DNA of 64,000 nt. It comes from Alphaproteobacteria bacterium. Lineage in GTDB: Bacteria > Pseudomonadota > Alphaproteobacteria > UBA2136 > UBA6156. The first letter of the stretch is position 1. Each line of letters opens with the position of its first letter. Under the pieces are notes generated by a model, which saw nothing but the letters and a program-made list of their open reading frames with translations, ran no database searches and had not been told where the DNA came from. The stretch covers positions 804,983-868,982 of the forward strand of contig JAIXQG010000002.1 of NCBI GenBank assembly GCA_027485835.1. The letters run 5' to 3'. Position numbers and translations under genes: made by a program. Positions 26,262 to 30,876 of the stretch are shown piece after piece.

Positions 26262-26686
26262 GGGGGCGCCTTGGTTTTGACGGGGCGCTGACCTGAACAG
26301 GAGCATGCGGCAGGGGTTACGGGCTGCCTTAATAACCGTGACAGGTACATAAATGCCAAAGCGAAAAGCAACGTGATCGCTTTCCGTCCGCGCACCAGCG
26401 CTGGCGCCTACGCGATGGCTGCCTAACTAGAACCTTCCCCTTGGTTGGGGAACTTTAGTTAACAGCTCCGGCACCTTCTCTCTACCGTGTGGCGTGGTAG
26501 GGGGTTGCCGGCCAAATCTCTGCCACTCTAGGGCCTAGCGCGCCAAGCGTGTAACCCGAAATTTAACTTGGCAACTTTGAGTAAGGGGGCAACCGGCCTA
26601 GCTTAAAGTATCCTCTGGTTGCTGAGCATGGAGACCCTTACGGGAACGCGTTTCGGACGTGGGTTCGAGTCCCACCGCCTCCACCA
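26262..26686 (+). ncRNA. ssrA: tmRNA, one-piece form
   Basis: This 425-nt gene encodes transfer-messenger RNA, which rescues stalled ribosomes and tags the unfinished protein for proteolysis. The 5' end GGGGGCG pairs with the 3' CGCCTCC before ACCA, including a G3-U wobble that is the alanine identity element. GGTTCGAGTCC is the T loop. Both tRNA-like ends lie at the gene ends, so the gene is not circularly permuted. The tag frame runs from GCC at 26355 (or GCG at 26361) to TAA at 26424. It encodes 21-23 residues beginning AKSNVIAF and ending AYAMAA. The small-Ala C-terminus fits ClpXP recognition; the length and basic middle are unusual. Confidence 0.93.
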
Positions 26687-26854: not shown

Positions 26855-27271
26855 TCAGCTGAGTTTATCGTGGATGTCGGCGGTGGACTGGAGGGTGCGG
26901 CCGACGGGGCATTTGGCTGCGATTTCGAGGAGGCGCTGGCGTTGCTCTTCGGTGAGATCCGGCGCGTCGAGTGTGATGGTGCGGCTGAAGGTATCGCGTT
27001 TGTCTCCGGTATGGGTGGGGACCTTGGTATAGTGGACGACCGTGCTGACGTGGGTGAGTGGCCAGCCCTTTTGGGTGGCGTACATGCGCAGGGTTTGGTT
27101 GGTGCAGGCGCCTAATGCGGCGCAGAGGAAGTCGTACGGGGCGGGGCCGGTGTTGAAGCCGTCGTGGTCTTCCGGTTGGTCGGCAGACAGTGTGTGGAAG
27201 CGGGTTTGAACTGTTTGCGCGTAGGGGGCGGGGTGAACCTCGCTGACCGTGACCGTGGTAGTGCCGTACAT
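26855..27271 (-). CDS. OsmC/Ohr-like peroxide-reducing protein
   Basis: A 138-residue OsmC-superfamily protein that reduces organic or fatty peroxides through two redox-active Cys. The first lies in YDFLCAALGACTNQTLRMYA (about residues 48-67) and the second in AAKCPVGRTLQ near the C-terminus. The family is cytoplasmic and dimeric. The subgroup resembles the YhfA/OsmC-like branch that is often fused to hydrolases, here as a stand-alone domain. It is a single gene between ssrA (convergent) and the small exported protein at 27399 (divergent). Confidence 0.87.
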   Translation of the reverse strand: MYGTTTVTVSEVHPAPYAQTVQTRFHTLSADQPEDHDGFNTGPAPYDFLCAALGACTNQTLRMYATQKGWPLTHVSTVVHYTKVPTHTGDKRDTFSRTITLDAPDLTEEQRQRLLEIAAKCPVGRTLQSTADIHDKLS

Positions 27272-27398
27272 GGGATGACTTTCTTGTTAACCCTAGCAGT
27301 TTAGCATGGAGATTGAGATGTTTTAAGGGGTTGGGGCTTGTTTTTATGGGAATTTGGGTTATGTATGTAGTTGTAAATTCCTCCCTGGAGCTAAAAAC

Positions 27399-27794
27399 AT
27401 GAATCGCGTTTTATCTCTTGCCGCTGTTGTTGCGGCCCCTCTGATGATGTCGTCGGCTGCTTTTGCAGCCGGTGCGTGTGACAGCCTTTCGTCTGCTCAA
27501 GCCGTTCCGGTCAAGGCGTTTCAGGACGGCCGAGTCGTCCGTTTTGAGCCGACAGAACAGGTCCCCGATTATGGGGTTCTCTTCTATGAAAAGCGAGAAT
27601 GGCCGATCTTTCAGGCTACCAAGCGTGAAATGAAGCAGGTCGTCGCATCTGACTCGTTGCGGGCGGTTTTTTCGCCTGAAGTCGGTGGCATCACGATGCA
27701 GATCGTTGATCTGGAAGCTGGCTGCATCACTCTGGTGCAGATGACGGTGGTTCCTGCAACCGCGGCGCCGAAATCGGTTTTGGCCAGCAACTAA
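27399..27794 (+). CDS. Small exported protein with N-terminal GACD motif (paralogue 1)
   Basis: A 131-residue protein starting at MNRVLS, with CTGGAG 9 nt upstream; an earlier in-frame start at 27354 would put non-signal sequence ahead of the signal peptide. The signal peptide (about 1-23) is followed immediately by AGACDSLSS. The mature part has only two Cys, one in GACD and one in EAGCITLV near the C-terminus, so a single disulfide is likely. It shares this layout with the next two genes, though the middle is more divergent. No known domain is seen. A terminator follows, so it is separately transcribed. Confidence 0.65.
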   Translation: MNRVLSLAAVVAAPLMMSSAAFAAGACDSLSSAQAVPVKAFQDGRVVRFEPTEQVPDYGVLFYEKREWPIFQATKREMKQVVASDSLRAVFSPEVGGITMQIVDLEAGCITLVQMTVVPATAAPKSVLASN

Positions 27795-27816
27795 GTCTGG
27801 CCTTTCTTACGTAAAT

Positions 27817-27847
27817 AAAAATCCCGTCAGCGATGGCGGGGTTTTTT
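27817..27847 (+). terminator. Terminator after exported paralogue 1
   Basis: The stem ATCCCGTC/GGCGGGGT with a 6-nt loop is preceded by A5 and followed by T6. It separates the first of the three exported-protein genes from the second. Confidence 0.8.
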
Positions 27848-27936
27848 GCGTTTTAGGAAGGCCCTTGGCGGGGAGTGGTAAGTTTGCTAAATGTATACGT
27901 GAAAGTCTCTGGTTTTACCCGTGGAGGAGAACGGTG

Positions 27937-28452
27937 ATGACATGCAGAACGTTTAGGCCCGCCGTGGCGGGAATGCTGATGGTGATGCTGGCGCTGCCGG
28001 TGCTTGCCAAGGATATCGACCCGCCGCCGGAAGGGGGTGCGTGTGACATTTTGTCGGAGTATTTCATTCGGGAAAATGGTGGTACCGGTGTGCGGGCGCG
28101 GGTGGAGGCGTGGATAGAGTCTGACGGGCTTTACTTTAACCTCCGTGCCAGCGATAGGCGCAAGCTGGTACCGCAGAACCTTGCGTTTGGAGGGCTGCCG
28201 GCGGTGATACCGGAGAATATCCAGATGACTAAGGAGCTTGAGGTTGGCTTTGGCCCTGATATTGCCATCGGGCATCTGGCCGATATGGCCAACCGTTATG
28301 GCGGCTGGGCGGTGGTAGTGCCTTACCAAGGCATGTATGCCGCCCAAGTGGTGGTACAGGTGGGCGATGCGGGCGAGGAAACTTGCACGTTTGCCTACAT
28401 TAAGCCGGAGTATCTGGGCGCTATGGATGTTTCGGCGCGTTTGATGGAGTGA
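27937..28452 (+). CDS. Small exported protein with GACDI motif (paralogue 2)
   Basis: A 171-residue protein starting at the ATG at 27937, which has GGAGGA 8 nt upstream; longer upstream frames lack a signal-like N-terminus. The signal peptide (about 1-24) is followed by DIDPPPEGGACDILSEYF and a GGTGVRARVEAW segment. In the C-terminal half it has YGGWAVVVPYQGMY and one Cys (EETCTFAYI). The mature protein has two Cys, as in its neighbours. It is the closest relative of the gene at 28581 and is transcribed on its own, with a terminator behind. The function is unknown; periplasmic or secreted location is inferred. Confidence 0.65.
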   Translation: MTCRTFRPAVAGMLMVMLALPVLAKDIDPPPEGGACDILSEYFIRENGGTGVRARVEAWIESDGLYFNLRASDRRKLVPQNLAFGGLPAVIPENIQMTKELEVGFGPDIAIGHLADMANRYGGWAVVVPYQGMYAAQVVVQVGDAGEETCTFAYIKPEYLGAMDVSARLME

Positions 28453-28470
28453 CCTGTGACTACCTTTGCG

Positions 28471-28502
28471 AAAAGCCCTGCCGGTGACGGTGGGGTTTTT
28501 TG
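28471..28502 (+). terminator. Terminator after exported paralogue 2
   Basis: AAAAGCCCTGCC can pair with GGTGGGGTTTT, with a few G-U pairs and a 6-nt loop, followed by a T-run. It separates the second and third exported-protein genes. Confidence 0.7.
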
Positions 28503-28580
28503 TTAGGGGGAGGGGGTTTTATTTTAATGGGTTAGTTCTATAATAAGCCTACACGATACCTCATATGAAAGGATATGCAG

Positions 28581-28964
28581 ATGAGGACTTTGCGTTTCAT
28601 GGCCGCCTTTCTGGCGGTATCGACTTTCTCTTCCTTCGCTGTTGCTGCTGATTTTCAACCTCCTGCAAAGGGTTCGGCATGCGACATTGCTACCAAGGCT
28701 TTTCTCAAGGGTGCTGGTGGCAAGGGCGATCGGGTTCTTGTTCGAATCGAACAGGAAGATGACGGTGGTGTGTCCTTCGTTAAGGACTACAGCATCGACT
28801 TCCCGCTTGGCGAGCTCAACGGCCTTCTCCCGCATCTGGAAAACCAGGAAGAAGCCATTGCCTATGGCAATGCTAACGGCGCGTGGGCGGTTGCACGGCC
28901 GGATGGGCAGATGAAGGTATTCTACCAGTCGCCCCGTGGCTGCGTGGAAGCTTTCCGCAACTAA
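28581..28964 (+). CDS. Small exported protein with SACDI motif (paralogue 3)
   Basis: A 127-residue protein. The ATG at 28581 is preferred to that at 28575 because GAAAGGA ends 7 nt before it. The signal peptide (about 1-22) leads to DFQPPAKGSACDIATKAF and then GGKGDRVLVRIEQEDDGG. This aligns well with the gene at 27937: PP-x2-G-x-ACDI, GG-x-G-x-R and a later AWAVARPDGQMKVFYQ resembling GWAVVVPYQGMY. Two Cys remain in the mature protein, one near the C-terminus (PRGCVEAF). The role is unknown. Confidence 0.65.
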   Translation: MRTLRFMAAFLAVSTFSSFAVAADFQPPAKGSACDIATKAFLKGAGGKGDRVLVRIEQEDDGGVSFVKDYSIDFPLGELNGLLPHLENQEEAIAYGNANGAWAVARPDGQMKVFYQSPRGCVEAFRN

Positions 28965-28991: not shown

Positions 28992-29016
28992 AGACCCGCC
29001 TTTCGGCGGGTCTTCT
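28992..29016. terminator. Bidirectional terminator between exported paralogue 3 and rpsA
   Basis: A 9-bp perfect stem (AGACCCGCC and GGCGGGTCT) with loop TTTC is placed between two convergent genes. The flanking T-rich and A-rich bases are modest but present. Confidence 0.75.
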
Positions 29017-29040: not shown

Positions 29041-30876
29041 TTACTCGGCAGCGGCTTCGGCCTTCTTCTTGGCAGGGGCCTTTTTGGCCTTCGGAGCGGC
29101 TTCTTCAGCAGCTTCGGTGGCTTCAGCCTTGGCAGCAGCAGCCTTTTTGCCCTTTACGCCTGCTTGCTTGAGGGCGGCAGCCAGAGCGCTGTCACCTTCT
29201 TCGCTTTGGTTGGCGTATTCGGCTACGGCAGCGCGCTCTTCATCCTGTTGCAGGGCGCGAACGCTCAGGGACAGCTTGCGGTCCTTCTTCGACAAGACGG
29301 TGATCTTGGCGTCGATGGTTTGGCCTTCCTTGTAGCGGTTGGTGTCCTGCTCGGCCTTTTCGATACCGAGGTCGCGGGCACGGATGCTCACTTCCACGCC
29401 ATCGAGGCTGACAGTGATGCTGTCGGCGTCGGTGTCGACCACGGTTACCTTCACCACGTCGCCCTTGGCGCGGGTGTCGGCGATGTGGGCGAACGGATCG
29501 CCAGCCAGTTGCTTGATGCCGAGGGCCACGCGTTCCTTAGCCGGATCGATGGCCAGGATAACGGCTTCGACCTTGTCGCCCTTCTTGTAGGACTGCAGGG
29601 CTTCTTCGCCGGAGACATCCCAGCTCAGGTCGGAGACGTGAACCAGACCGTCGATTTCTTCGGTCAGGGCTACGAACAGACCAAAGTCGGTCAGGCTGCG
29701 TACGGTACCTTCGACCTTGTCGCCAACGTTCTGGCTCTTGGTGAAGGCTTCCCACGGGTTGTCTTGGCACTGCTTGAGGCCGAGACTGATACGACGCTTG
29801 TCGCGGTCGATTTCCAGAACCTGAACGGTCACCACTTGACCGGTGCTGACCACCTTGGAGGGGTGCACGTTCTTGCGGGTCCAGCTCATTTCGGTCACGT
29901 GGATGAGACCTTCGACGCCCGGAGCGAGTTCTACAAACGCACCGTAGTCGGTGAGGTTGGTGATCTTGCCGGAAACGCGTGCGCCGATCGGGTAGGTGTT
30001 GTCCACCTTGGTCCACGGATCGTCGTGCAGTTGCTTGAGGCCGAGGCTGACGCGCTGGGTCTTTTCGTCGAAGCGGGTCACGATCACGTCGATGCTTTGG
30101 CCAACAGTGAGCACCTCAGACGGGTGACCAATGCGGTGCCAGGCGATGTCGGTGATGTGCAGCAGGCCGTCGATACCGCCGAGGTCGAGGAACGCACCGT
30201 AGTCGGTGATGTTCTTGACGGTACCCTTGAGAACCTTGCCTTCCTTCATGTCGGCCATGATTTCATCACGGTTGCCCATGCTGCCTTCGTCGGTCACGGC
30301 GCGGCGGCTGACGATCAGGTTGTTACGCTTGCGGTCCAGTTTTACAACTTGGAATTCCAGCGGAATGTACATGAACGGGTTGGCGTCGGTGATCGGTTTG
30401 GCGTCGAGCTGGCTGCCGGGCAGGAAGCCCAGAACGCCGGTGACGTCTACCATGAAACCACCCTTAACCTTACCGAAGATGACACCCTTCACGGTCTCGC
30501 CAGCCTTGTGGGCGTTTTCGAGCGTGGTGAGAACTTCTTCGCGGCGGGCCTTTTCGCGGCTGAGGCGGGCTTCGTTGCGGCGGTCATCGAGGGACTCGAC
30601 GAACACGTCGACCATGTCGCCGACCTTGACCTTGACTTCGGAGGTTTCGAAATCTTCGAATTCCTTCAGCGGAATACGGCCTTCGGACTTCAGACCGATG
30701 TCGAGGGTGACGCATTCGCTATCCATTTTGATAACGATACCCTTAACGACGCTGCCGACTACCGGGTGGGCGTCGGTGAAGGTGTCTTCCAGACGTTTGG
30801 CGAAATCGATGTCGAAGGCTTTTTGGAGAGTCTCGGGAGAGACGGAAAACTCGTTAGAGTTATTGAAATTAGACAT
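29041..30876 (-). CDS. rpsA: 30S ribosomal protein S1
   Basis: S1 binds mRNA on the small subunit and helps translation initiation. The 611-residue protein has the six S1 (OB-fold) repeats of the proteobacterial form. Repeats 3-6 show the repeated G-x-V-x3-TDYGAFV-x-L and the DKRRISLGLKQC-like ends. The extreme C-terminus is a Lys/Ala-rich tail (about residues 570-611), longer than in E. coli (557 aa in all). It is a single-gene unit: the divergent sdhA lies upstream and a terminator downstream. The usual cmk neighbour is absent. Confidence 0.97.
   Translation of the reverse strand: MSNFNNSNEFSVSPETLQKAFDIDFAKRLEDTFTDAHPVVGSVVKGIVIKMDSECVTLDIGLKSEGRIPLKEFEDFETSEVKVKVGDMVDVFVESLDDRRNEARLSREKARREEVLTTLENAHKAGETVKGVIFGKVKGGFMVDVTGVLGFLPGSQLDAKPITDANPFMYIPLEFQVVKLDRKRNNLIVSRRAVTDEGSMGNRDEIMADMKEGKVLKGTVKNITDYGAFLDLGGIDGLLHITDIAWHRIGHPSEVLTVGQSIDVIVTRFDEKTQRVSLGLKQLHDDPWTKVDNTYPIGARVSGKITNLTDYGAFVELAPGVEGLIHVTEMSWTRKNVHPSKVVSTGQVVTVQVLEIDRDKRRISLGLKQCQDNPWEAFTKSQNVGDKVEGTVRSLTDFGLFVALTEEIDGLVHVSDLSWDVSGEEALQSYKKGDKVEAVILAIDPAKERVALGIKQLAGDPFAHIADTRAKGDVVKVTVVDTDADSITVSLDGVEVSIRARDLGIEKAEQDTNRYKEGQTIDAKITVLSKKDRKLSLSVRALQQDEERAAVAEYANQSEEGDSALAAALKQAGVKGKKAAAAKAEATEAAEEAAPKAKKAPAKKKAEAAAE

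Follow-up and report, generated by a model that had tools for sequence, protein, structure and literature searches.

What are the three small genes that lie between an OsmC-family gene and rpsA in this bacterial genome, are they relatives of one another, and what might their products do? The stretch of DNA that was analysed (the window, 64,000 nucleotides) had been given a preliminary description in which these genes were seen as a local family of small exported proteins with two cysteines. The gap between the OsmC-family gene and rpsA holds three open reading frames (ORFs) on the plus strand, in the order P3, P1, P2, within the following arrangement:

26855-27271, minus strand: OsmC-family gene (Pfam, 62.4 bits)
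27338..27367, plus strand: promoter-like element before P3, TTGTNT-N16-TATGTATG, also present in three spacers of a congener
27399-27794, plus strand: P3, 131 aa, probable signal peptide, mature start (A)GACD, second Cys at 109
27817..27846, plus strand: P3 hairpin terminator, -17.2 kcal/mol
27937-28452, plus strand: P1, 171 aa, probable signal peptide, mature PPPEGGACDI, mature-part Cys at 36 and 150
28471..28502, plus strand: P1 hairpin terminator, -24.5 kcal/mol
28575-28964, plus strand: P2, 129 aa, probable signal peptide, mature PPAKGSACDI, Cys at 36 and 123
28992..29013, no strand assigned: hairpin between the convergent P2 and rpsA, -23.2 kcal/mol
29041-30876, minus strand: rpsA, with S1 domains

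Reading frames, export signals and terminators

The preliminary description spoke of three consecutive signal-peptide proteins whose mature form starts near G/S-ACD and has a second cysteine late in the chain. The ORFs and the cysteines were confirmed, while the signal-like N-terminal segments of P1, P2 and P3 were called by eye and with a crude home-made rule in place of a dedicated predictor. The mature part of each protein contains two cysteines, the first within G/S-ACD and the second 22, 21 and 6 residues from the C-terminus in P3, P1 and P2, respectively; the signal peptide of P1 contains one additional cysteine. A strict lipobox ahead of the first cysteine is absent from all three. By the crude rule, two more small ORFs of the window have signal-like starts (882-1208, 108 aa, four cysteines; 1353-1634, 93 aa, two cysteines) and are candidate genes.

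Codon statistics derived from 15 ORFs of the window place the annotated frame first of six in each gene, with a score of 0.209 against -0.215 for the next best frame in P1, 0.087 against -0.111 in P2, and -0.014 against -0.381 in P3. The frame preference by codon use is clear for P1 and P2 and weak for P3. P2 may also start at a second ATG at 28581 (127 aa), since by eye AAGGA stands 7 bases ahead of it.

That each gene has a terminator of its own was borne out by folding: a stable hairpin lies 3' of P3, P1 and P2, and in each case none of 200 shuffled sequences was as stable. A simple terminator scanner detected the P3 hairpin on the plus strand, missed the P1 hairpin, and saw the third on the minus strand only; because P2 and rpsA are convergent, this third hairpin is probably a terminator shared by the two. 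The hairpins make separate transcription of P1, P2 and P3 plausible, and the genes may also be regulated separately, as had been proposed. A common leader upstream of the three genes was looked for and not found. The promoter-like pattern before P3 occurs once in the window with no mismatch, against none in 100 shuffled windows, for a pattern chosen after both of its places (before P3 and in the congener spacers described below) had been seen; with up to two mismatches, chance alone would give 1.08 per window.

Kinship of the three proteins

Without their signal peptides, P1 and P2 align with a local score of 85 against 27.4 +/- 4.7 in shuffles, and none of 5000 shuffles was as good. It had been held that these two, the second and third of the row, align along their length. 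The significant match proves to be limited to about 39 residues (mature residues 2-40): with the comparison confined to the part from mature residue 57 onwards, the score was equalled by 368 of 5000 shuffles in local and by 322 of 5000 in global alignment, and it is inside this chance-level tail that the WAV-x2-P motif and the late cysteine, both collinear in P1 and P2, are found. Within their own genome the two proteins match one another reciprocally (E 6.8e-6 and 1.6e-5). A check for further copies in this genome, which the preliminary description had proposed, returned P1 and P2 alone with a P1/P2 profile at E 10, and P3 alone with P3 at E 1. In each of the four stretches compared, the DNA of P1 and P2 is no more alike than chance would give (271 to 498 of 1000 shuffles as good), so it is the protein sequence that preserves the resemblance. 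Protein paralogy without DNA similarity suggests that selection acts on the protein. As judged from their sequences, P1 and P2 are true tandem paralogues, with the kinship carried by the mature N-terminal segment.

The place of P3 is less clear. Similarity beyond chance, and with it the proposed family of three, was upheld for the mature N-terminus of P1 and P2 and not for their tail alone, nor for P3 by protein, where DNA gives hints only. P3 could be an unrelated exported or lipid-anchored protein that stands beside the pair and shares ACD by chance, a reading to which we give an even chance. Its protein similarity to P1 and P2 is not above chance (808 and 976 of 5000 local shuffles and 1233 and 266 of 5000 global shuffles were as good), hhalign gives a probability of 1.4%, and a permissive lipoprotein pattern fits P3 at Cys27 and neither P1 nor P2. 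However, the missing strict lipobox speaks against a lipid anchor, and two observations at the DNA level speak against an unrelated origin. An identical 13-mer over GACD is found in P3 (27471) and P1 (28036), in frame in both and with no further occurrence on either strand of the window; the DNA stretch around it scores 26, which was matched by 1 of 1000 shuffles and was the best of 12 comparisons. Moreover, the P3 and P1 terminators are identical at 24 of 32 bases, whereas 33 other terminator-like sites of the window share at most 20 of 32 with either one; the reverse-strand reading of the P3 hairpin shares 24 with the P3 terminator and 20 with that of P1. The sites compared (36) came from a simple home-made finder, and some are possibly not terminators. 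From these sequences, P3 is perhaps a more diverged copy of the P1/P2 kind.

Distribution and the array of a congener

The earlier statement that no known family is recognised was confirmed in Pfam, NCBIfam, PHROGs, PADLOC and PDB sequences. P1, P2 and P3 gave only weak matches in the first four, none at the curated cut-off where one exists, and the PADLOC models of anti-phage defence gave 0 families for the three proteins at E up to 10; P2, P3 and the P1/P2 profile likewise found only weak matches among PDB sequences. The Asr acid-shock protein model NF033636 matched residues 1-33 of P3, that is, its signal peptide (E 0.0012), and was rejected at 19.7 bits against a cut-off of 50, with nothing matched past the signal peptide.

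Searches of genomes were similarly restricted in outcome. P2 found its own genome alone among 61, with no accepted homologue in the 60 relatives. P1 matched 2 of 11 genomes of the family at E 1, its own and G006 (locus L005, 41 residues, E 0.0455). The P1/P2 profile found only its own genome among 18 of the order, in a class sample of 385 (none in 384 others) and in a phylum sample of 398 (none in 397 others), these three samples being overlapping. P3 matched 2 of the 385 genomes of the class sample, its own and one other (L027, E 3.6e-4, 26% identity); the latter was rejected, as it contains two internal TAG and lies on the strand opposite a 365-aa ORF, which on inspection by eye has the appearance of a TRAP-type binding protein. 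No relative was found for P2 in GTDB genome contigs (51 pattern stretches, in a scan that detects close relatives only) or plasmids, for the P1/P2 profile in viral contigs (77 stretches), or for P1 in phages. The 3' flank of rpsA in seven family members (L016-L022, 1.7 to 12 kb) holds nothing like P1-P3 apart from a 40-residue match to P3 in L019 (E 0.11), which was taken as chance.

Two congeners were available for comparison, 78% and 86% complete. The contig of one (G002) ends inside rpsA and the other (G001) has no rpsA match, so the rpsA-adjacent site cannot be read in a congener. With two incomplete congeners, recent gain, loss and fast change are all compatible with the pattern. The best reading of these sequence searches is that P1 and P2, and P3 if it belongs with them, are private to the species or genus.

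As to the organism itself, the window contains a one-piece tmRNA at 26262-26686 (Rfam RF00023, 106.1 bits) with the long tag AKAKSNVIAFRPRTSAGAYAMAA, in a host genome that seems alphaproteobacterial. Alphaproteobacterial tmRNA is usually a two-piece permuted molecule. G002, which belongs to the window's genus, is the metagenome-assembled genome (MAG) UBA6156, its contig C17 being the exact reverse complement of DIUO01000019.1, and NCBI taxonomy places this MAG in unclassified Pseudomonadota. In Table 4 of one study, a freshwater-sponge MAG of g__UBA6156 is entered under Alphaproteobacteria (PMC12616128), and a passage of another names UBA6156 among rhizosphere taxa (PMC10745315).

A relative of the OsmC-family protein in G001 (64% identical, Pfam 60.0 bits) led to contig C125 (L030), where four small, probably exported proteins, c1-c4, are encoded in a row (L030:9869-12098). 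The row lies on the 5' side of the OsmC gene and on the opposite strand, about 2.5 kb off, with a SpoU-type methylase gene and two small ORFs in between. No match at cut-off was found for c1-c4 in the libraries. The 12 pairings of c1-c4 with P1-P3 gave none above chance (lowest 58 and 69 of 1000 shuffles), nor did the 6 pairings of c1-c4 among themselves (lowest 125 of 1000). The spacers before c2, c3 and c4 are near-identical in parts over about 100 bases, with a mean column identity of 88%, and similar terminators recur in the c2-c4 array, including one after c4. The signal-peptide DNA of c2-c4 is shared (0, 6 and 22 of 1000 shuffles as good) and that of the mature parts is at chance (900, 567 and 366 of 1000), while the stretch before c1 has only faint similarity to the other spacers (10 to 28 of 1000). 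A hairpin in the c2-c4 spacers was unsupported (z -1.13, 0.17 and -1.23). These sequences of the congener hint at control regions that persist longer than the proteins expressed from them.

A model of the congener spacer (R1), built from its own three copies, returned those copies and 14 weak matches (E 0.015 to 0.44) among 31 genomes, and none in the window's genome. Inspection of 13 of the 14 weak matches (two on the plus and 11 on the reverse strand) showed no second array. One of these 13, in another genus of the family, has a spacer-like promoter stretch ahead of unrelated sequence (L033, G007:C101:2006-2046, reverse strand), and for this reason the promoter-like element may represent a promoter type in general use in the family.

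Likely role and comparison with known systems

Structure prediction, which had been suggested as a check, was run, and its models were too poor for claims about a fold: the P2 model, built on two sequences, has a mean pLDDT of 51.3, and that of P3, at 36.9, is useless. In the low-confidence P2 model a helix (11-22) has the first cysteine (mature residue 12) at its start, and the last strand (98-103) contains the second (mature residue 99); these positions are compatible with a disulphide in a possible alpha+beta fold. A fold search of the PDB gave at best a Foldseek E of 1.5 and a VIA Z of 4.0, against thresholds of E 0.001 and Z 5, for a model so poor that a match could be missed.

Our preferred reading, held tentatively and with slightly less than even confidence, is that these are lineage-restricted, fast-diverging and separately transcribed proteins, exported by Sec, with a probable disulphide and a binding or inhibitor-type role. 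P1 and P2 would be tandem paralogues and P3 perhaps a more diverged copy, each gene forming its own transcription unit. The product would be exported by Sec, lose its signal peptide and probably adopt a small alpha+beta fold in the periplasm, with one predicted disulphide from the N-terminal CD motif to the late cysteine. Most likely it would act in soluble form, either at the envelope or extracellularly, as a binding or inhibitor-type protein, and the proteins may be under selection for change. We infer this role from the small size of the proteins, their probable export and their narrow distribution. Toxins, inhibitors or envelope stress factors had been named at the outset; neither a family nor a confident fold indicates any of these, and the neighbouring genes support neither them nor any other specific role for P1-P3.

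It is improbable, in our estimate, that P1-P3 belong instead to an established type of small enzyme inhibitor of the periplasm (lysozyme inhibitors are one example) and have diverged too far for the profiles. Size, probable export, two cysteines and the possible alpha+beta fold would all suit such a protein, but Pfam and NCBIfam hold no match at cut-off and the PDB none at the fold thresholds, the latter with a model too poor to exclude one. Least probable of all is that the ORFs are remnants in decay or arose by chance and have no function, for although they lack accepted relatives and the codon score of P3 is near zero, the annotated frame scores highest of the six in every gene, the starts are signal-like, the hairpins are stable, and P1 and P2 remain paralogous at the protein level though their DNA similarity is gone.

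A wider idea, which we consider unlikely, would extend the preferred reading to the genus. A unit consisting of promoter, signal peptide and terminator would be copied in tandem to form arrays, and the mature parts would diverge or be replaced fast, so that kinship would be left only in control regions and signal peptide (c2-c4) or in the ACD segment and terminator (P1/P2, perhaps P3). Such arrays would serve to diversify binding proteins that are secreted or lie at the surface. The basis of the idea is a single contig from one congener, together with the hints from P3. Arrays, if they do diversify in this way, would mark a strongly selected contact surface in an uncultured alphaproteobacterium whose genome measures 1.5 Mb, and would offer a case of control regions that outlast the proteins they express. 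As it stands, P1 and P2 are an orphan family, a real but small finding of one confirmed paralogue pair.

Among the systems that invite comparison, the c1-c4 array is the nearest in layout, being a row of small, probably exported cysteine proteins near an OsmC gene with a hairpin-like terminator after each; it differs in that its proteins have no similarity to P1-P3 and its conserved spacer is missing from the window's genome. With the Asr acid-shock protein, the weak likeness of P3 ends with the signal peptide. Periplasmic lysozyme inhibitors are small exported proteins in which disulphides are frequent. P1-P3 resemble them in size and probable export, but not by any profile or convincing fold match. 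Small exported orphan proteins restricted to one lineage are a general class in bacteria. P1-P3 are like these in being short, probably exported, without a family and confined to one lineage in the searches made, and differ from them in that two proven paralogues stand here side by side, each with its own hairpin.
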